DNA from: a virus
IMG/VR virus record: IMGVR_UViG_3300000229_000004
Location: 1-24,981 of that record
DNA: 24,981 bases
Strand: one strand, 5' to 3'
Shown here: positions 1,032 through 18,029 of the stretch, piece by piece
Layout: each line of letters starts with the position of its first letter
How positions within the stretch are numbered: the stretch's first letter is position 1
Notes under the pieces: generated by a model
The model's database searches: none
Told to the model about the DNA's origin: nothing
What the model saw: the letters and a program-made list of their open reading frames with translations, nothing else
Position numbers and translations under genes: made by a program

Positions 1032-3113
1032 TTATGCGGCGACTACTTCTATTTCTCCGCTATTGTTAATTATTATTTTTTTTGTTTGTGTTCCGTCTGG
1101 ACTTGTCAAGACTATTCCCGCTCCATTACCGCCAACGTATAGAGCTGTTAAGTAAGAGTTTCCTATTGTTGCTGTATTGCTACCATTACCTATTGCATCT
1201 GAACCAATTACTATTTGATTAGTTTCTCCATTGGCTGCTGGTCTTGTATCGTATCCAATAAACACAGAGTTATTTCCTGTTGAGTTTTGGTTTGGCCCTG
1301 TTCCTGCAAATCGACCTGAATAATAACCGTTTGCTATGTTGTAACTTCCTGTTGTGTTGTATAATAAGGAATTATAACCGTTTGCTAGGTTGGCAGATCC
1401 TGTTGTGTTGAAATAAAGAGCACTCGCTCCGTTTGCTATGTTTTTAATTCCGGTTGTGTTGTTGTAAAGAGCATCTCCCCCGTTTGCAATATTGTTATAT
1501 CCTGTTGTGTTATAACGGAGTGCGTTAACTCCGTTTGCTACGTTTGTATAGCCTGTTGTATTGGAATAAAGAGCATCTCCCCCGTTTGCAATATTGTTAT
1601 ATCCTGATGTGTTGGAACGGAGTGCGTTAACTCCGTTTGCTATGTTGTAACTTCCTGTTGTGTTGGATTGTAGTGAAGTATATCCATTAGCTGTATTTCT
1701 ATTTCCTGTTGTGTTGTTTCTAAGCGATTGATACCCGTTTGCAGTATTTTGATTTCCCGACGTGTTGGAATATAAGGCTTGATAACCATTAGCCGTATTA
1801 CTTGATGCATTTCCAGTACCTCTACCAATAGTAAGTCCATTAATTAAGGCATCTCCATTTATCAATACCTCGGTGGTAGAAGAATTACCTAATACGACTT
1901 GGTTTGATTTTGTAGGTTGAGTATTTGAACCTATTGATATTGTATTTTCATAAGCAAATTGAGGTGTAAGTATATGTCCTGTTCCTGTACCTGCACTAGT
2001 AATGTTAGTACCGTGATATATAGTGGCAGTTATTAACTCTCTAAAAGAAAGAGTATTTGCATCAATTATCTTAACCTGATAAATTGAATTATTGTTTAAA
2101 CCTGCAATAGATGACGTTCCTTGTGTATATCTTAAGTTTATCCATGTTCCATTAGAACCAAAACCATGACCGGTTATAGTAACCCTATCGGTTGCAATAT
2201 CAATATTAGTATTATCAAAAGTCTTATTTCCTGCGGTATTATCTAAGAAAGTGGAATAAACATTATGTCCAATTGCTATATTATTATTTTTTTGATTGTA
2301 CCTTAATGCATTACTTCCAACTGCTACAATATTATTACCTGTGTTATTAAAACCTGCATTATAACCACTTATAAGACCAATATCACTACCTGTGTTATTC
2401 ATACCTGCTACCGAACCACTAATAATTCCGATTTCACTACCTATGTTATTCTTACCTGCTGACGAACCACTTATAAGTCCGATATAACTACCTGTGTTAT
2501 TAAAACCTGCATAATCACCACTAATAAGTCCGATATTATTACCTGTGTTATTATGACCTGTATAATTACCACTTATAAGTCCGATATTACCACCTGAGTT
2601 ATCAAAACCTGCAGAAATACCACTTATAAGTCCGATACCACTACCTGTGTTATTATAACCTGCTTCATTACCACATATAAGTCCTATAACATTACCTGTG
2701 TTATCGACACCTGTATAAGTACCACTTATAAGTCCGATATTATTACCTGAGTTATTGACACCAGCACCTTCTCCTAAAATAACTAAGCCGTTTTGTCTAT
2801 TAATAATTAATACATTAGAATCCTCACCATCATAAGATTTAGTCAATTTCAAGTTTCCGTATTCATCTAAGCTAAATGAAAAAAGTGGATATGTACCGTC
2901 AGTACCCATTTCAATAGTACCTCCTTTTACTATTGCTTCAGCAAGATTTAAGGTACCTGTAAAAGTAGCAGAGTTAGTTCCTAATTTTAATGTTGATTCA
3001 TTACCTAAACCATCAGTTATAACCTGTTCTAAATCACTTATAATACCGTTGTCGGTTGTTTTAATTAACCCAATATATGAGTTTTTAATTTGACTGCCTG
3101 TTAATTGAGCCAT
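1032..3113 (-). CDS. Tail fibre with two 17-residue repeat arrays
   Basis: A 693-aa fibre-like protein. Residues about 1-65 form a conserved N-terminal domain (GLIKTT.NGII...EQVITDGLGN..TLKLGT) shared with the next fibre gene, so it is probably the virion-attachment part. Eight 17-residue units of the type NNTG..IGLISG..AG follow at about residues 119-254. A central beta-rich domain comes next (VTITGHGFGSNGTW...QVKIIDANTLSF), then ten 17-residue units of the type N.ANG..AL..NTTG (about residues 439-608). The end is a YadA-head-like segment plus a short C-terminal domain (SPDGTQTKKI). Such glycine/asparagine repeats are known from trimeric beta-helical adhesins and fibres. The receptor is unknown. 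The start at 3113 gives the shared N-terminus. Confidence 0.88.
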   Translation of the reverse strand: MAQLTGSQIKNSYIGLIKTTDNGIISDLEQVITDGLGNESTLKLGTNSATFTGTLNLAEAIVKGGTIEMGTDGTYPLFSFSLDEYGNLKLTKSYDGEDSNVLIINRQNGLVILGEGAGVNNSGNNIGLISGTYTGVDNTGNVIGLICGNEAGYNNTGSGIGLISGISAGFDNSGGNIGLISGNYTGHNNTGNNIGLISGDYAGFNNTGSYIGLISGSSAGKNNIGSEIGIISGSVAGMNNTGSDIGLISGYNAGFNNTGNNIVAVGSNALRYNQKNNNIAIGHNVYSTFLDNTAGNKTFDNTNIDIATDRVTITGHGFGSNGTWINLRYTQGTSSIAGLNNNSIYQVKIIDANTLSFRELITATIYHGTNITSAGTGTGHILTPQFAYENTISIGSNTQPTKSNQVVLGNSSTTEVLINGDALINGLTIGRGTGNASSNTANGYQALYSNTSGNQNTANGYQSLRNNTTGNRNTANGYTSLQSNTTGSYNIANGVNALRSNTSGYNNIANGGDALYSNTTGYTNVANGVNALRYNTTGYNNIANGGDALYNNTTGIKNIANGASALYFNTTGSANLANGYNSLLYNTTGSYNIANGYYSGRFAGTGPNQNSTGNNSVFIGYDTRPAANGETNQIVIGSDAIGNGSNTATIGNSYLTALYVGGNGAGIVLTSPDGTQTKKIIINNSGEIEVVAA
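1290..1799 (-). repeat. Ten 51-bp coding repeats (C-terminal array of fibre)
   Basis: Ten consecutive 51-bp units, read directly as CCTGTTGTGTTG-type motifs every 51 bp, encode 17-residue repeats with consensus N(T/I)ANG..(A/S)L..NT(T/S)G. Some units alternate in near-identical pairs (NGVNAL, NGGDAL), suggesting duplication of two-unit blocks. The final unit is degenerate. Confidence 0.93.
2352..2759 (-). repeat. Eight 51-bp coding repeats (N-terminal array of fibre)
   Basis: Eight 51-bp units encode 17-residue repeats with consensus .(N/D)N(T/S/I)G..IG(L/I)I(S/C)G..(A/T)G. A ninth, degenerate unit runs to about 2301. The sequence differs from the second array, but the 17-residue period is the same, consistent with one turn of a common fibrous fold. 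Confidence 0.93.
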
Positions 3114-3137: not shown

Positions 3138-4133
3138 TTATACAATTCTAATTTTCAATATACCAGCTGTGTGATAAACACCTCCTAACGGTATACCTCC
3201 AGTTGAAGCAGCTGCATCATCAGCATATCCTAAACTACCATAGTCTAACATTTGTAACTTTTTAATTGTTACAGTATTTGCGGTAGATGCGGTTACACCA
3301 TATCCTATAGCTACAGAATTATTTGCAAGGCTAAGAGTTTGAGCTCCTAATGAAATACTTTGATCTCCAGAAGTTGTTGCAGATCTACCAATAGCAACAC
3401 AAAACGTATTTCCACCCGTTATATGTTTAGCGTCATTACCGATATAAACACCACCATATGATGGATATATCTCATTACCTACAGATACACTATCTCCTCT
3501 AAATGCTAAATCAGTCGGCATATTATTACCAATTGCAACTGTGTTGCTTGCATATACCGGTCCTGTAGAGTCTCCAATTATAATCATATTAGATGATCCA
3601 GCATTTCCAGTTCCTATTGCTATATTTTTTGCTGAATTTGCATCAGCTCCATTACCAATTGCAATTGCATTTATTGCGGTTGATGAACATGATATAGTTG
3701 TTAAAGTATCTGATGACTTTATTGAATTCTCTACAGTTCCATTTACTAAACCAGCAGCTCCACCATCAGTTGCACTAACAATTGGATTTAAAGGGTCTGT
3801 ATTATCTATAGTTATATTTGTTCCAGCAACTACAGATTCTAATCCACCATCAGTTGCACTAACAATTGGATTTAAAGGGTCTGTATTATCTATAGTTATA
3901 TTTGTTCCAGCAACTACAGATTCTAATCCACTTACAGGAATTCCAGTTACAGTAGCTCCAGTTAAATTTAAAGTACCTACAAAAGATGCTGAGGTAGTTC
4001 CTAATTTTAATGTTGATGCATTACCTAAACCATCAGTTATAACCTGTTCTGAAGCACTTATAATACCGTTGTTGGTTGTTTTAATTAGACCTTGATATGT
4101 TTGATCTATTTGTTGATTATATAATGTTGACAT
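3138..4133 (-). CDS. Shorter paralogous tail fibre, YadA-head-like
   Basis: A 331-aa fibre protein. Its first ~60 residues match the N-terminal domain of the longer fibre gene downstream. Two copies of a 28-residue unit (VVAGTNITIDNTDPLNP core) follow at about residues 68-124. A region of YadA-head-like motifs (IAIGNGA, NSVAIGYG, AVAIGNN-type) covers about residues 135-285. The C-terminus has the small domain DDAAAS.GGIPLGGVYHTAG..KIRIV, a recurrent ending in marine phage fibre proteins. It probably assembles as a trimeric tail or side fibre. With the next gene it forms a two-fibre set sharing an attachment domain but with different tips. Confidence 0.85.
   Translation of the reverse strand: MSTLYNQQIDQTYQGLIKTTNNGIISASEQVITDGLGNASTLKLGTTSASFVGTLNLTGATVTGIPVSGLESVVAGTNITIDNTDPLNPIVSATDGGLESVVAGTNITIDNTDPLNPIVSATDGGAAGLVNGTVENSIKSSDTLTTISCSSTAINAIAIGNGADANSAKNIAIGTGNAGSSNMIIIGDSTGPVYASNTVAIGNNMPTDLAFRGDSVSVGNEIYPSYGGVYIGNDAKHITGGNTFCVAIGRSATTSGDQSISLGAQTLSLANNSVAIGYGVTASTANTVTIKKLQMLDYGSLGYADDAAASTGGIPLGGVYHTAGILKIRIV
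3759..3931 (-). repeat. Perfect 84-bp tandem duplication inside fibre gene
   Basis: Positions 3759-3847 are identical to 3843-3931, with a period of 84 bp (28 codons, in frame). The lack of any difference between copies indicates a recent duplication or continuing conversion. An assembly collapse or expansion here is possible. Confidence 0.95.
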
Positions 4134-6634: not shown

Positions 6635-7006
6635 TTAATAATTTGGTCTAAAAAAGACTTCTGATACTCTTTCATTAGTGTTAGCTCCTGGATTATACGT
6701 TAAAGTATTCATACCTCCACCAGGTTCTGTTATAATTTTAACAATACCTTTTTCAAGTGAAACTCCTTGAAAGACTAAATCCCAGTCATAAATTCCATTT
6801 TTATGAGCATCTCCAAATCCAATTGGGAATGCAACCCTAAAACTTGAATATCGTATGTTTGATAAGATACACTCAGCTTCAAGTAATAATGGTTGATGAC
6901 TATATTGACTAGTAATACTAAAAGTATAACCCACACCTATTTCTAAGTTTGATTGGCTAAATGATATTTTTACTAATAAATCATTCTCATTTATATATAA
7001 TGTCAT
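6635..7006 (-). CDS. Small virion-associated protein, beta-rich
   Basis: A 123-aa protein, probably an all-beta fold. The N-terminal strand region (ISFSQSNLEIGVGYTFSITSQYS) resembles an immunoglobulin-like sandwich. The C-terminal part (NGIYDWDLVFQG..LEKGIVKIITEP.., ending VFFRPNY) resembles small proteins found next to portal genes in Bacteroidetes phages. Its function is not established; a decoration, stopper or baseplate component is possible. It starts at 7006, facing away from the plus-strand gene at 7075 across a 68-bp gap that contains a 24-bp palindrome. It begins the distal half of the minus-strand structural operon. Confidence 0.72.
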   Translation of the reverse strand: MTLYINENDLLVKISFSQSNLEIGVGYTFSITSQYSHQPLLLEAECILSNIRYSSFRVAFPIGFGDAHKNGIYDWDLVFQGVSLEKGIVKIITEPGGGMNTLTYNPGANTNERVSEVFFRPNY

Positions 7007-7019
7007 TAATTTTTGAATG

Positions 7020-7043
7020 TTTTTATATTTATAAATATAAAAA
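7020..7043. promoter_or_regulatory. 24-bp perfect palindrome in a divergent intergenic region
   Basis: The sequence from 7020 to 7043 equals its own reverse complement and consists only of A and T. It contains TATATTTA on both strands (7024-7031 on plus, 7032-7039 on minus). It sits in the 68-bp gap between the minus gene starting at 7006 and the plus gene starting at 7075, the only divergent gap in the window. A symmetric regulator site or a pair of back-to-back promoter elements would fit. A perfect -33 partner was not found for either direction. Confidence 0.45.
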
Positions 7044-7074
7044 GTATGATCGTTGTAATCGAACTAGATATTTT

Positions 7075-7560
7075 ATGAAGACCGAGTCAATAATATATGG
7101 TAAATTTAAAAACTCAGAATGGAAACATGTAAATGGTATAGACTCTATTAAACATGTTATCGAAAGAATAAAGACTGAAGTATGCTTTGATGAGTATCAA
7201 CTATGGGTTCATGGCAGCATCTTAAGTGATGTGAATACTTATGATATAGATTTAAGCATCTTAGGTCCATTACGTCCTCCTATCATCAATCAGATGCTCG
7301 AGACAATTGTTAAAATAGGATTTGAAGAACATATATTTTGTGATGTCAAATATAGTGTAGATAATCAGCTTTATGATCCTGTAAATGATGCTCCAAAACA
7401 TATATTATGGGCATGTTATGATAGTAAAATACAAGTTAATGGCAAAACCTATCATTATGGTCAGCTTACTAAAGATTTACATGTAAAATTAAGTGAATAT
7501 CCAATGACTAAGACCTTAATAAACGGAATAGTCTATAAATCACCAATTAAAATAGCATAA
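7075..7560 (+). CDS. Nucleotidyltransferase-fold protein, only plus-strand gene
   Basis: A 161-aa protein from the ATG at 7075. The frame is open further upstream, but that would overlap the divergent gene and the palindrome. It shows the polymerase-beta superfamily signature: hydrophobic-HGS (G47, S48), eight residues, then DIDL (D57 and D59), and a later acidic residue on a strand (FCDVKYSV, D90). The first part matches the metal-binding hG[GS]...Dh[DE]h motif of small nucleotidyltransferases. The substrate is unknown. These enzymes include tRNA- and protein-nucleotidylating enzymes and MNT-type antitoxin partners, but no HEPN-like partner is visible here. It has its own terminator and interrupts a minus-strand operon, so it is probably an independently expressed moron. 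Confidence 0.78.
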   Translation: MKTESIIYGKFKNSEWKHVNGIDSIKHVIERIKTEVCFDEYQLWVHGSILSDVNTYDIDLSILGPLRPPIINQMLETIVKIGFEEHIFCDVKYSVDNQLYDPVNDAPKHILWACYDSKIQVNGKTYHYGQLTKDLHVKLSEYPMTKTLINGIVYKSPIKIA

Positions 7561-11180: not shown

Positions 11181-13163
11181 TTATAACCTAGCTAAATCAT
11201 TAATCTTACGATCAGCTTCTTGTTGTGAACTTATATCAGTCGATACAACATAAGCCTTTATGATTGTGGCTCCAGTACTTCCGGTTTGATTGGTTAAACT
11301 AATTTGATTATCTAATCTTTGACCTGTTGTATTACTAGTTAATGCTGCATTTGGATCGTATACTGGAGCTTGAGGAATTGCTGGAGTAGGTATAGATCCA
11401 CTAGATCCACTAGATCCATTACCCTTACCTGGTATTTTAACACTTAAAATCTTTTTAATGTTTAGTAGACCAGTAGCAACTGCCAGTCCAGCGGCTATTG
11501 GTGCTAAAGTCGGACCAACTACCGGAATTCCAACCATAGATTTATAAGCTGATGTAGCTGATACGTATGTATCAATTGTAGTTTGTGCAACTGCAGCTGC
11601 TTTTCCAATAATTGAACTTTCACCAACTACGTCAACTATATTACCAAGTACCTGACTTGTAGCTTTTAGTGCGTTATCTATATCCTGACGCCTTAATTCT
11701 TCTTTAAATTTAGTTTCTTCCTCTAATATTTTTTTACTTTTATCAGAGTATTTTTGATTTAACTTTATTAATTCGTCGGTAGTAGCTCCTGCTTGTTTTA
11801 GTTTTTCTTCATCTATTATTCTTTGAGCCTCTAATTCTGCTTGAGCCTTAGCAAACATATCATCAACTTTAGGTAACAGTGACGCATTTAATATGTCATT
11901 AATAATTTTTTGATTAGCTATTGCGGTCTGGTCATCTTCTAGTTTCTTTGCATCAGCTATAGCTTTAAATTTATCAGTAATTTCTTGTTTCTTTGTTCCA
12001 TATAGTTTATCAAATTCAAGAAGTAACTCTACACTTGCTTTTTTATCAAGTAATAATTGACGAGCAGCTATTCTCTCAACCTCTAATAAGGCCTGTGCTT
12101 TTAGTTCGGCATCTTCTATATTTTCAGCTTTTAATCTTGCAAGTTCTTTGTTTAGTTCTTTTTCATAATTAACTGTGTTTGTGTTTGAATCAGCTTTTGT
12201 ATTTTTTGCATCATCTGCTGCTTTAGTCTCAGCAGCTTTATTTTGCAAGATATAACCATCACGTGTATTCTTTAGTTTAACTAAATTAGCTTCTAATTCT
12301 GTGTTAGCCTTATCACCTTCTGTTTTTACTTTTTCTGGATTAAATAAAAGTTTAGCTATTCCACCACTAAACTTCTCTTCTAAATTAGTTCCAGATTCTA
12401 ATACTCCAACCTTAGCAAGTCCATAAGTTAATGCATCGACTGCTGCTAATAAGATACTAACAGGTATCATTAAATAACGAACAACATTCTGTGCGATACC
12501 AGCATTTCTTTCTAACGCTTCTACTTGAGCTTTAGATTGTTCCTTTTGTAATATTAACTGACTTTCCATTGCAATAATGGTCTCATCAGTTTGTTGAATC
12601 TTTAAGTCTCTTATTTCTTTTTCAGATTTACCACTAAGTTTTAATGAGTTTTCTGAGGCTAATGTGCTATCTAAGGACTGTTGCCTTACAATAACTTCAG
12701 ATTTAGCATCTTCAAGCAATTGAGCTTGTTTTGAAGAAACACCAGAGATTGCACCTACTATTTTATCCCAATTTGCGGCAATTAAACCTAATGCTACAAC
12801 AATTGCACCAATCCCTGTTGCGATCAGTGCTTTACCCATTGCATTAGCACCCATAACTGCTGATTTAAAACTCGAAACAGCAGAGGAACCTAATGTCATC
12901 ATTCCGCCTCCAACTTCTTTAACCTTAGTTCCGAGTCCTCCAAATGCTTCATCAATAATCTTAGTAGCACCCTCTGCATTTTTAGCAGCAGTTCCACTAT
13001 TCTTACCAACAGTATTAGTAGCATCAGCTATATTGTCAATTGACTTTTCAGTCTTTTTAGATTGTGATTCAACACCCTTAAGAGCTGATTGCAAGTCCTC
13101 AACTGAAGATACTGATTGTGGTATACCTTCGATTTCAAATACTATCTTAACTTCTTCTGCCAT
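11181..13163 (-). CDS. Tape measure protein
   Basis: A 660-aa protein, mostly helical. An N-terminal region rich in Thr, Asn and Lys is followed by a glycine-rich hydrophobic stretch (about 84-135, ALIATGIGAIVVALGLIAANW). A second hydrophobic patch lies near 228-252. A long coiled coil (about 325-500) and a conserved C-terminal hydrophobic segment (GKAAAVAQTTIDTYVSATSAY..., then PVVGPTLAPIAAGLAVATGL) complete it. This layout and ending are typical of siphovirus tape measure proteins, which set tail length and pass DNA through the cell envelope. By the usual 0.15 nm per residue, a tail of roughly 100 nm would be expected. It follows the large tail protein and precedes the protease, not the tail-tube gene. 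Confidence 0.85.
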   Translation of the reverse strand: MAEEVKIVFEIEGIPQSVSSVEDLQSALKGVESQSKKTEKSIDNIADATNTVGKNSGTAAKNAEGATKIIDEAFGGLGTKVKEVGGGMMTLGSSAVSSFKSAVMGANAMGKALIATGIGAIVVALGLIAANWDKIVGAISGVSSKQAQLLEDAKSEVIVRQQSLDSTLASENSLKLSGKSEKEIRDLKIQQTDETIIAMESQLILQKEQSKAQVEALERNAGIAQNVVRYLMIPVSILLAAVDALTYGLAKVGVLESGTNLEEKFSGGIAKLLFNPEKVKTEGDKANTELEANLVKLKNTRDGYILQNKAAETKAADDAKNTKADSNTNTVNYEKELNKELARLKAENIEDAELKAQALLEVERIAARQLLLDKKASVELLLEFDKLYGTKKQEITDKFKAIADAKKLEDDQTAIANQKIINDILNASLLPKVDDMFAKAQAELEAQRIIDEEKLKQAGATTDELIKLNQKYSDKSKKILEEETKFKEELRRQDIDNALKATSQVLGNIVDVVGESSIIGKAAAVAQTTIDTYVSATSAYKSMVGIPVVGPTLAPIAAGLAVATGLLNIKKILSVKIPGKGNGSSGSSGSIPTPAIPQAPVYDPNAALTSNTTGQRLDNQISLTNQTGSTGATIIKAYVVSTDISSQQEADRKINDLARL

Positions 13164-13194: not shown

Positions 13195-16100
13195 TTAGTC
13201 TGGACATAAACCTATTAAAGATGGTTCTGCACCATAAAATGTTATAATCTCAATAGCACAAAACCTAGTTTCATCATATCCACCTGATCCTATTCCATTA
13301 TAACATGCTTCCTCTTCTATTCCCGCACAGTTTAAATAAGTTGTACAACCTTCATCATAACCACCAATTACATATTCCTTACATGTTGAAGTACATAATG
13401 TACAATTAGAATAAGGTCCATCAAATGCAATAGAATCAACAGGTAAGAATGTTTTTCTTATTGCTTTATAACAACCAGCATGACCATCCAATTTCCAAAC
13501 AGTTCCAATTGTCATTCCAGGCACTTCATAAACAACTACTTCATTTTCTAACGTACAGTTTCTTAATAACCATTTAAGTGATGTTGATTCATGACATAAT
13601 ATACAACTAGTAAAGGTATCATCTACTAATGAATCTGGTGTATTATTAACTATTCGTCGTGGAACATAACATTCAGGACGACTAATATTGTTTAAATCTG
13701 TTAATTTATAGTAATTACTAAATGATGGTGTTGTTCCAGCAGGATACCATACATAAAATTCATTCATAGTATTTATGGTTTCACAATCAGCTATGATTTC
13801 TAAAAATAACCAAGTTGCTCCTATACCACCTTCACATGTTAATTCCTGAGTATAAGAATGTAAACACTCAAAGTGATCATAAACAGTATAAGAATATTGA
13901 CCAGCACATAAATTAGTTCTTGTAAAAGTGTATATATGCTCAGGATGCCAGTCAATTGAATAAGGTCCTGTACCACCAGATGGAGTCACTGTAATACTAC
14001 CATCACATTCATTACAATTTGATGGGTTTGTTATTAAAGCGGTTGCAGTAACTTCAGTTGCAACTGATGGTGGAACTATAACATCATTTATCGTTTTAGT
14101 TCTTCCTATCTGATCATTTATTGTTAATGTGTAAGTTCCTGCAGGTACATTTTCAATTGTAAATAAGTAAGGTGCCTGTCCTGGTAAACTAGTAGTAAGG
14201 GCAGAGCCTGTCATACCATTTGATAATTCCCAAGTAAATCCTGGGGTACCATTAGTCGTTATATCAATAAAACTAGATCCGAATGCACAAAGTGCTGCAG
14301 CACCAACTGCAGTAAAATCAAGTAAAATTTGAAATGGAATGATATTTGGTCGGTAATCATTTGCTGTTAATAACTGAACTTTTACTTGAGTATATGATCC
14401 AATTTCAATATCAATAATTTTTTCTGGTATATAATAAGTACCATTAATTAATATAGTGTCGTTAAAGGATAACTTATTAATATCAATGTTATTTAAAATA
14501 AAGGATGCTGTAATTCTACGAGAATATTTACCATATAAAAAGCTTATGTATCTTGACCAATAATTATCATACAAAGTTGGACTAATAATGGTATCTGGAT
14601 TAGTTAAATTATCAACATTAAAATATTTTATACCATTTCCCCAATTTAAATTCAAATTTTGGGTTTCTTCTGTTCCAATTGGCCAACTTTGATATGGTGT
14701 AACTAATGGATATGATGTATATGGTGTTTGACTTCCTTCAACATACCAATTAAGGCTATTATGTAGACCATTATAAAATAAGAATCTGGTTTTAGGTTTA
14801 ATCGGTAAATGTTTAGTAATACCACTATTATCTCCTTGTGTGTGCACATGTATTTGTGGAATAACAAAATTGTCATCATTCCGGCTACCTTCAAGATTTA
14901 AGAGTATAGTTGGTGCAATTCCATTTAATTTAATAGTCTTATTACCTATCAATAAGTCATTGTTACTACTAAAATGTAATGAACCATAAGGCTCTGAATA
15001 AGCTTGTTTATGATATACATTAGCATAGTCTCCACCTTCTTGTAAGCTAAAATCAAGTTTGTCTACTTGATTAATAAAGATTGACTCTATTTGAATATCT
15101 TTATCGTTTACTAATTTAGTTGACCAATCATAAAGCTCTCCACTATTAATATAAGTTTGCCAAGGCTCTACAATAAAGTTATGTGAGTTATTAGGATCTG
15201 GACTGAATACAAGTCTAAATGCTGTTAATATATCTTTAATAAACTCAATTTGCTTATAAGTACAATTTAAGGTAGTTACAGGATCATATTCTCCAGGTGC
15301 TGATATAACATCAAATGAAAAATTACTAGTAAAGAAGTTAGTATAAGGATTGCCAACATAGTTTAGTTCTCCTAAAAATAAGAATAGTTGATCACCTTGG
15401 GATATCTGGTATTCCGTAATATTAACATCAATTTGTAAAGTATCACCATATCCAGTTCCAGAATTAGATTCTGCAAGTGGTGTTGAATCTATATGAGCAG
15501 CACCAGCTCGCCATCTAAATAACTTTAAACTTTGATTAATATATTGAGGAGCTCCATTCGAGTTTACCAAATAACCTGCAAAGTAACATTGAGCTGTAAT
15601 TCTGTATATACCATTAACTGGTACATTATAACACGTAAAGTACTGATTATATGTGTCTCCATTATCTGTTGTAAAAGACGGAAGTACTTCTAAATTATTA
15701 TTAGGATCATTTATTGCTTCTGGTAATAAGATAGCATTATATAAGGATCCACTAGTTGCATTGTTTTGGGCATGACATATATTACCACTATTAGTGCTAC
15801 TAATATAAGAGGAATCCCATCTTATATTTGCAGTATTACCAAAAGAACTTATGTACATTTGATGGAATAACGCACTATTAATAAATGATGAAGTATAAGT
15901 ATAGCCAGTAGTTTCAAAGATCTTGTCCCAAATATATTTAGCACGAATCATTGGTTTAAATCTATCAATACTTAATGGATTTCCAGGTCGCGTAAATGAT
16001 TTACCTTCACTACCTATACTAACTCTAATTTCTGGTTCATTTACAGTTCCATCCTCACTATATGTATTACCATGATCGATTAAAGGGTATATGATATTTC

Positions 16101-16632
16101 CATTATGTAATCCAGAATCTAATATACCCAATTGAGGATATGCATTCCAACTGTTTTGAATATCAGCTACGGTTAGTCGATTATGTATTGCACCACCAAC
16201 TATCTCAGGCAACTTTAATTGACATAATGTTTTATCACTAAGCTTAGACGCGAAATCCTTAGTTTCACCAAAAAATAGTAACTCATAATCATATCTATTT
16301 AATTCGGGATTAAAGTATACTTTTTGTAATCTAATGTGTCCATGTTTAAACTCGACTCCATCAACTAATATTTCTGCTGGTTTCTTAATAGTAACATCAA
16401 ATATAACATCATTAACCTCAAACGAATTATTAAAAAATTTAGCATTATTTCTAGTACCTGGTACTTTAAAAGATTTTGAAAAGGCTGAAGTTGCATCTAC
16501 TTTTACAATGTCTTCAATACTTAAGGTTAGTTTAATTGGGTCGGTATCATACAAGTCAATCCATATTTGAGGAGTTGCCTCTCTTTCAGCTGGATTATTA
16601 AATGAATGTTCATAACATTTTAGTTGTATCAT
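13195..16632 (-). CDS. Large tail/baseplate protein with SprB-like repeats
   Basis: A 1145-aa protein. The N-terminal ~130 residues (WIDLYDTDPIKLTLSIED, SAFSKSFKVPGT.NN..FF) resemble an N-terminal domain common in large tail proteins of Bacteroidetes phages. A long beta-rich middle (about 200-770) follows. Residues about 780-932 form two SprB-like repeats; the second shows the family pattern C..CDGSITVTPSGGTGPYSIDW, then LCAGQYSYTVYD...C. The C-terminal ~200 residues are Cys-rich, with two related modules ending SCILC and NCTLC. SprB repeats are best known from the flavobacterial gliding adhesin, so this is probably the host-binding tail-tip protein. Its start overlaps the previous stop (TAATG). 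Confidence 0.75.
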   Translation of the reverse strand: MIQLKCYEHSFNNPAEREATPQIWIDLYDTDPIKLTLSIEDIVKVDATSAFSKSFKVPGTRNNAKFFNNSFEVNDVIFDVTIKKPAEILVDGVEFKHGHIRLQKVYFNPELNRYDYELLFFGETKDFASKLSDKTLCQLKLPEIVGGAIHNRLTVADIQNSWNAYPQLGILDSGLHNGNIIYPLIDHGNTYSEDGTVNEPEIRVSIGSEGKSFTRPGNPLSIDRFKPMIRAKYIWDKIFETTGYTYTSSFINSALFHQMYISSFGNTANIRWDSSYISSTNSGNICHAQNNATSGSLYNAILLPEAINDPNNNLEVLPSFTTDNGDTYNQYFTCYNVPVNGIYRITAQCYFAGYLVNSNGAPQYINQSLKLFRWRAGAAHIDSTPLAESNSGTGYGDTLQIDVNITEYQISQGDQLFLFLGELNYVGNPYTNFFTSNFSFDVISAPGEYDPVTTLNCTYKQIEFIKDILTAFRLVFSPDPNNSHNFIVEPWQTYINSGELYDWSTKLVNDKDIQIESIFINQVDKLDFSLQEGGDYANVYHKQAYSEPYGSLHFSSNNDLLIGNKTIKLNGIAPTILLNLEGSRNDDNFVIPQIHVHTQGDNSGITKHLPIKPKTRFLFYNGLHNSLNWYVEGSQTPYTSYPLVTPYQSWPIGTEETQNLNLNWGNGIKYFNVDNLTNPDTIISPTLYDNYWSRYISFLYGKYSRRITASFILNNIDINKLSFNDTILINGTYYIPEKIIDIEIGSYTQVKVQLLTANDYRPNIIPFQILLDFTAVGAAALCAFGSSFIDITTNGTPGFTWELSNGMTGSALTTSLPGQAPYLFTIENVPAGTYTLTINDQIGRTKTINDVIVPPSVATEVTATALITNPSNCNECDGSITVTPSGGTGPYSIDWHPEHIYTFTRTNLCAGQYSYTVYDHFECLHSYTQELTCEGGIGATWLFLEIIADCETINTMNEFYVWYPAGTTPSFSNYYKLTDLNNISRPECYVPRRIVNNTPDSLVDDTFTSCILCHESTSLKWLLRNCTLENEVVVYEVPGMTIGTVWKLDGHAGCYKAIRKTFLPVDSIAFDGPYSNCTLCTSTCKEYVIGGYDEGCTTYLNCAGIEEEACYNGIGSGGYDETRFCAIEIITFYGAEPSLIGLCPD

Positions 16633-18029
16633 TATCCTCTTTGACTTTTTAGTTTATGTGCTAGTTTAAATTTAATATTATATTGAAACAACTGGTCTTT
16701 TCTTACAGTTTTCTCAGTATAATCAGTATTTAGTATATTTATAGGGATCCATTTAAATGGTGTATTTGAATCATTGAATCTTACTTTAACATCAACACTT
16801 GTAAATAATCCTTGTAAGTACAAAGCTTCTGCATCTGTTAAGTAATTAGTAAATGCAGTATATTCTTCTGATAGATCTTGAGAATACACAGTTGTTCCTC
16901 TCTCATATATATTGGTAGTATATAATGTTGTATTATAGTCGACACCCTCTCTAAAAAACTCATTTCTATTAATCTTAACTGACCTATCTTTACGTTTTCT
17001 AAAAGAGAAGTAGTCTCTAAATCCATACGAATTTAGCCATGAAAATTGATATTGAGGAAAGTCATTACAATCTTCTTTAATAATATTGAAACGGTGTACA
17101 TAATGTAGAGAGTCTATTGTAAGTTTTTCAGGATCAGTAGTATGACTATAAGCATGAGAACTAACATAATAATGAGTGCTTTGAACCTTAAAACTTTTAA
17201 AGTTCTTAGGTCCAGTTCCTAAAGTAATTGCATAAAGAGGATATGTTGTAATTAATCCTTGACCTGGAATTTCGTTTGGTCCTCCACCTACATCATTAGT
17301 GTTATAATATGTGTATTCGCGAAAAGAGTCATTGCCGATAAATAACTCAAACTTAAAAGCCTCAATTCCTTGTGCATTTTCTGGGATTATACCTCTATTA
17401 CTATTATAATAAGAGATGGTAGTCATATCATTTATAGTAACATAATGATCGTACACTCTCATAGTATCTGTTAGCCAATTAGGTTTTCCATCAGTTATAT
17501 CTTTGCCTAATCTAAACTCTTTAAGATCAGTGAATGGCTGTGCTTGCTCAACAACTGCAGTATAAACTCCTCCACTATCATAACTAATTAATGGAATATA
17601 AGGATTTGGGTTATAAGGGACTTCATAGTATTGCTTAGTACCTCCAAAATTAAGTAATAATGGAGAACTACCATCTATTAAAACTTCGGATCCAGTTTCA
17701 CTACCAAATTCTATTGTATATGGCATTGATTCATTAGCTGAATTAGTCATTAAAATTTCAACTAAACCTGTTTCTTCTATATTATTAGGAGATGGTGCTA
17801 TGAAATTCTGTAAAACATTTTGAATATCAAAGATTGCATTACCTACTGAATTAGGTGTTTGCCTAAGATTTGCAATCATTGTACCTGCTCTAAATATTTG
17901 TAAGACATATTTGTCTGCTGATATTGCTCCAGTAGATGGATTAGTTGGAATTCCAGTTAGAGTTACTGGATTAGGACCATAAGTTTGATCAAATGGTGTT
18001 GATGGTGTTTGTAATAATGTAACTGACAT
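16632..18029 (-). CDS. Tail/baseplate protein, beta-rich
   Basis: A 465-aa protein without a motif I can name confidently. The N-terminus (SVTLLQTPSTPFDQTYGPNPVTLTGIP) and the strand-rich remainder, including NPYIPLISYDSGGVYTAV and the near-C-terminal YLTDAEALYLQGLFTSVDVKVRF, suggest a beta-sandwich structural protein. The terminal lysine-rich strand IKFKLAHKLKSQRG ends it. It is coupled by TAATG to the large tail protein and follows the gp10-like gene by 3 bp, so it is very probably a distal tail or baseplate component acting with the large protein. Confidence 0.65.
   Translation of the reverse strand: MSVTLLQTPSTPFDQTYGPNPVTLTGIPTNPSTGAISADKYVLQIFRAGTMIANLRQTPNSVGNAIFDIQNVLQNFIAPSPNNIEETGLVEILMTNSANESMPYTIEFGSETGSEVLIDGSSPLLLNFGGTKQYYEVPYNPNPYIPLISYDSGGVYTAVVEQAQPFTDLKEFRLGKDITDGKPNWLTDTMRVYDHYVTINDMTTISYYNSNRGIIPENAQGIEAFKFELFIGNDSFREYTYYNTNDVGGGPNEIPGQGLITTYPLYAITLGTGPKNFKSFKVQSTHYYVSSHAYSHTTDPEKLTIDSLHYVHRFNIIKEDCNDFPQYQFSWLNSYGFRDYFSFRKRKDRSVKINRNEFFREGVDYNTTLYTTNIYERGTTVYSQDLSEEYTAFTNYLTDAEALYLQGLFTSVDVKVRFNDSNTPFKWIPINILNTDYTEKTVRKDQLFQYNIKFKLAHKLKSQRG

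Follow-up and report, generated by a model that had tools for sequence, protein, structure and literature searches.

We propose that a 1145-residue protein encoded in this window (24,981 nucleotides of the viral record IMGVR_UViG_3300000229_000004) forms the central hub of the tail in a long-tailed phage of marine Bacteroidota, and that a pair of SprB-type domains within it acts as a flexible stalk that holds a cysteine-rich C-terminal end. We give this reading a probability of about 0.72. The phage is probably a siphovirus. The proposal is based entirely on computation: it draws on a modeled hub fold, on conserved gene order, on two immunoglobulin-like (Ig-like) domains, and on relatives in which the tail region has been exchanged or lost. 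The SprB match by itself does not mean that infection involves gliding motility.

The first-pass annotation placed a tail-tip protein at 13195..16632 and did not mention the strand. The open reading frame is real: it begins with ATG and lies on the minus strand. The genes around it are phage genes (terminase, HK97 gp10-like, tape measure, protease, capsid, and portal). Directly upstream is a conserved tail gene of 465 amino acids (16632..18029, minus strand), which has no Pfam or PHROG match; 73 of 89 related loci have a homologue, nearly always immediately before the hub. Directly downstream is the tail length tape measure protein (11181..13163, minus strand; phrog_24676, E = 5e-21), and a tape measure gene follows the hub in 45 of the 89 loci. 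(The order of hub and then tape measure is the reverse of the classical siphovirus order, and it is kept in the relatives and in the Nonlabens phage P12024L.)

The model of the full-length protein is of moderate quality (pLDDT 80, pTM 0.58). With Foldseek, it matches structures of lambda gpJ (E = 1.4e-11 and 6.2e-11). With VIA-align, residues 1–760 match the baseplate initiator of cyanophage A-1(L) (8kea; Z = 12.1, 4.6 Å over 305 residues), a needle-complex protein of phiCD508 (9g8s; Z = 12.1), and a baseplate protein of Agrobacterium phage Milano (8fqc; Z = 11.9); these hub matches rest on 286–305 aligned residues at 4.6–5.0 Å. Together, the predicted hub fold and the syntenic position between the 465-amino-acid tail gene and the tape measure identify the protein as a tail hub, so placing it at the tail tip was right. 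Residues 1–757 (14362..16632, minus strand) are the hub core, as delimited by alignments, a core profile, and the fold matches. Inside the core is a C1q/TNF-like jelly-roll (residues 281–449; 15286..15792, minus strand), which aligns to 1c28 (Z = 13.1, 2.6 Å over 121 residues with VIA-align), whereas the insert in gpJ is a fibronectin type III (FNIII) domain. Pfam's C1q model matches just 2 of 36 members of the family, with a best E value of 0.0011. This insert is possibly a second binding module.

Behind the core are two Ig-like domains, one clearly of the SprB type and one degenerate. Two consecutive SprB repeats with the pattern GGTGPY...W...G.Y...D...C had been reported here. A profile search, which the first-pass annotation had suggested as a check, does detect the family: PF13573 (SprB) matches residues 867–895 with E = 2.4e-9 and 37.1 bits, where the curated cut-off is 28 bits. 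These residues correspond to 13948–14034, and a six-frame search puts the match at 13945–14034 on the minus strand. It lies in the second domain (residues about 861–938; 13819..14052, minus strand), which also fits the pattern. This is the single stretch that passes Pfam's cut-off. The first domain (residues about 771–860; 14053..14322, minus strand) falls below the threshold and reads G.PGF.W...G.Y...D...G, without GGTGPY and without the final C. To a profile trained on Flavobacteriaceae host repeats alone (the phage contigs L093–L095 were excluded), the first copy scores 17.9 bits (residues 792–843) and the second 42.9 bits (residues 875–923). Both copies are clearer in the relatives, and the first copy of the window is homologous to their repeat 1. 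Thus the pair of repeats stands, with the first copy backed by the host-trained profile and the relatives rather than by Pfam, and the reported pattern holds for the second copy only.

Since the Pfam match spans 29 residues of the 37-residue profile, and one copy is under the cut-off, these scores might be a chance or low-complexity resemblance without true SprB homology. We give this almost no weight. The E value is low, the best of 2000 shuffles of residues 758–1145 reaches 8.7 bits with the host-trained profile, and PF13573 also matches 25 of 59 non-redundant tails of the hub family. Furthermore, an AlphaFold2 model of the C-terminal 390 amino acids starts with two consecutive beta-sandwich domains (mean pLDDT 90). 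The solved structures that match these domains are Ig and FNIII proteins and the adhesin GhpA of Aureispira, a bacterium of the Bacteroidota.

Lambda gpJ and T5 pb3 each continue beyond the hub scaffold with a tandem pair of FNIII domains, which may attach weakly to carbohydrates of the cell surface (PMC10721106). We suggest a stalk because the SprB-type pair sits where gpJ and pb3 have their FNIII pair. By analogy to these proteins, a hub trimer would close the tail tube. The two SprB-type domains would hang beneath it as a short, flexible stalk, which would hold and space the distal cysteine-rich modules; the two domains may also stick weakly and broadly to surface polymers before specific binding takes place. 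The C-terminus would then be the receptor-binding part. The window's protein resembles gpJ and pb3 in its N-terminal hub fold (in the model), in having two consecutive Ig-like domains after the scaffold, and in being encoded within a tail gene cluster. It differs in that its Ig-like pair is SprB-type in sequence instead of FNIII, its gene precedes the tape measure, and no sequence similarity to either protein was detected.

The cysteine-rich region (residues 939–1145; 13198..13818, minus strand) has 14 cysteines in 207 amino acids. It has no family match and was barely covered by the fold searches. Its last module can also be read in four related loci (L027, L029, L030, and L051). That these variable modules are a putative receptor-binding part is a guess.

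A single scan with the protein found 19 viral relatives; using an alignment as the query increased this to 328, and we retained 80 of them. All members of the family share the first 757 residues, and the part behind these differs. Besides the tails that match PF13573, others match DUF5977, collagen, BACON, or other families, or nothing, so that across the relatives the C-terminal slot holds SprB-type, BACON, DUF5977, collagen-like, or cysteine-rich modules, or none. In a tree of hub cores, 28 of 58 members carry SprB-type tails, and all 28 belong to a single clade (support 100), whose 35 members also include some with short tails or other tails. The SprB-tail label needs 4 changes on this tree; the starred branches force 3. 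In L053, L056, and L072, there is no SprB tail and the tape measure gene comes straight after the hub.

Another arrangement is seen in Nonlabens phage P12024L, whose host is a marine flavobacterium. Its gp46 (AFM54766.1) is a homologous hub whose gene is placed in the same way and follows one of similar size. But gp46 has BACON in its C-terminal slot and no SprB repeats, and it is about 30% identical to the window's protein over residues 21–153 only. Because the SprB-type repeats occur across a clade, are missing from some relatives, and are replaced by BACON in P12024L, they are an exchangeable accessory module that is old within one clade and dispensable. The searched collection contained no isolated phage with a SprB-tailed hub.

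We also considered that the SprB-type domains might be carbohydrate-binding receptor modules that set host range, independently of gliding. Phage Ig-like proteins confer adhesion to epithelium, as seen when they were displayed on another phage (PMC13370021), and adhesive BACON, PKD, or Ig-like proteins have been reported for gut phages. In crAss-like phages, tandem BACON repeats are associated with tail proteins (PMC6949934); these are also Bacteroidota-type Ig-like repeats, although they differ from the window's in domain family, phage lineage, and habitat. However, the gut-phage work concerns binding to epithelium and not to bacteria. And across the clade the two SprB-type domains are constant in number and order, while the parts beyond them vary more, which fits a stalk better. 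So we view a receptor role for the pair as unlikely. Nevertheless, a large clade has kept the repeats, and their function may be more specific than spacing.

The host of this phage is one of the Bacteroidota, and probably one of the Flavobacteriaceae. Portal matches are almost all to phages of Bacteroidota, with Nonlabens phages the best. Scanning genome contigs with the single protein gave no relative. With the alignment as the query, one turned up on a contig that belongs to a Flavobacteriaceae metagenome-assembled genome (MAG); the recognized genes of that contig are phage genes in the window's order. Among 60 Flavobacteriaceae genomes, the hub core was present only in this MAG, which has it on three contigs, and in the remaining 26 matching genomes it was the repeat part alone that matched. 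We found no integrated prophage with a hub of this family in the 60 genomes. (The three loci from the MAG, L119, L120, and L088, correspond to contigs C5, C8, and C7, each about 24 kb, and have related SprB-tailed hubs.) The same MAG also contains GldM and SprA. Because the binning of phage contigs is weak evidence, we consider Flavobacteriaceae to be the probable host family. The host group suggested by the original annotation agrees with these results.

That annotation also took the SprB repeat to be a hallmark of gliding adhesins. Our results do not support this. PF13573 matches a Hoc protein from a Klebsiella phage with 35.1 bits, which is above the cut-off, and a T5-like decoration protein with 26.2 bits, just under it; the hosts of these phages do not glide. 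The host-trained profile gives T5-like pb10 38.5 bits, as compared to 42.9 for the window, and it also matches Hoc and a tail protein. A profile of the hub tails matches pb10 (5lxk) with E = 5.8e-4, and Hoc-like PHROGs are matched by only 2 of 36 members. With a related tail as the query, 616 phage records were found, mostly from phages of enterobacteria. The SprB profiles thus also recognize Hoc proteins, decoration proteins of the T5 type, and tail proteins of other phages, whose Ig-like domains may be related to the window's in sequence. These proteins are displayed on the virion, as the window's pair would be, but on the capsid or the tail tube, while the window's domains are fused to the hub. 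Hoc also matches Ig_3, which the window's protein does not.

In Flavobacteriaceae, too, the repeat is widespread: it occurs in 55 of the 60 genomes, with as many as 53 matches in a genome, and the proteins that carry it vary greatly in size. In a tree of the repeats, most phage copies fall into two groups, one with 20 of the 22 first repeats (90/85) and one with 20 of the 22 second repeats (99/82), each apart from the sampled host repeats. This tree was built from 84 columns and leaves many forks unresolved; phage contigs L093–L095 were left out of it. The window's two repeats are about 40–48% identical to their nearest sampled host copies, over 42–68 residues, and at the tree's resolution we saw no recent transfer of repeats from host to phage. 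(Apparent matches of 90% between phage and host repeats were false, as the host set had included L093–L095.) Given the matches to Hoc and pb10, the general distribution among the hosts, and the separate phage groups, a match to PF13573 by itself does not imply gliding. Annotators should not take such a match as a marker of gliding adhesins, as an ordinary phage Hoc protein exceeds the cut-off.

Alternatively, the SprB-type domains might mimic or bind SprB-like gliding adhesins of the host, as was first suggested, with the phage fastening onto the moving adhesin layer and needing gliding in order to infect. The profile match to the hub protein is compatible with this, and the two-domain unit also matches consecutive repeats in large Flavobacteriaceae proteins. 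The MAG linked to the hub has GldM and SprA. For Flavobacterium columnare, the receptors used by phages are said to belong, probably, to the gliding machinery (PMC7345892), which makes some connection with gliding possible on other grounds. However, the same profile fits proteins from phages of non-gliding hosts nearly as well, the repeat is common in Flavobacteriaceae proteins generally, the phage copies cluster away from the sampled host copies, some close relatives have no repeats, and binding of SprB repeats to one another would have to be assumed. The hub protein also differs from the gliding adhesins and other SprB-repeat proteins of Flavobacteriaceae, even though those have PF13573-type Ig-like repeats that also come in consecutive pairs. 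It has two repeats where the adhesins have many, and it is encoded in a phage tail operon. It has no signal-peptide-like N-terminus: in 10-residue averages, hydropathy near the N-terminus peaks at 0.54, versus 2.65 for a secreted control. And it has no match to a T9SS sorting domain in NCBIfam up to E = 1. (As a positive control, TIGR04131 was detected in the phage-record protein L090, described below.) Mimicry or binding of the adhesin is therefore quite improbable in our view. A specific version, in which the pair engages SprB-repeat surface proteins of the host and the phage is carried along with the moving adhesin layer before its DNA enters, strikes us as slightly more doubtful still.

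SprB repeats on phages are not new, as UniProt already names them on proteins of uncultured Caudovirales; the useful result here is that they sit on a tail hub. (We found no literature that joins the SprB repeat and phages beyond work on polymorphic toxins.) With the tail hub and its proposed Ig-like stalk, these annotated repeats of uncultured tailed phages acquire a definite location and a probable structural function. The analysis also describes a hub family of marine Bacteroidota phages whose C-terminal slot takes Ig-like modules of the Bacteroidota type, both SprB and BACON.

Two records of huge uncultured phages also have SprB-like sequences. L090 (4924-9936 of LR756502.1, a 642-kb record) is a protein of 1670 amino acids with about 13 SprB repeats, a hydrophobic N-terminus, and a T9SS type B sorting domain (TIGR04131, E = 2.4e-13). 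It is either a host-type secreted protein carried by a phage or a sign that a bacterial contig was mislabeled. The other record (LR745206.1, 634 kb) has a SprB-like stretch at 26701-26937 (E = 3e-4).

Elsewhere in the window, 1032-3113 and 3138-4133 encode two fibre-like proteins with repeats that resemble YadA heads or tail spikes; they are present in only 5 of the 89 related loci. The second gene (3138-4133) contains an exact duplicated stretch, ESVVAGTNITIDNTDPLNPIVSATDGG. These two proteins are candidate receptor binders, and they could be the real ones instead of the C-terminus of the hub. At 6961-7560, an open reading frame of 199 amino acids lies on the plus strand, opposite to the structural genes.
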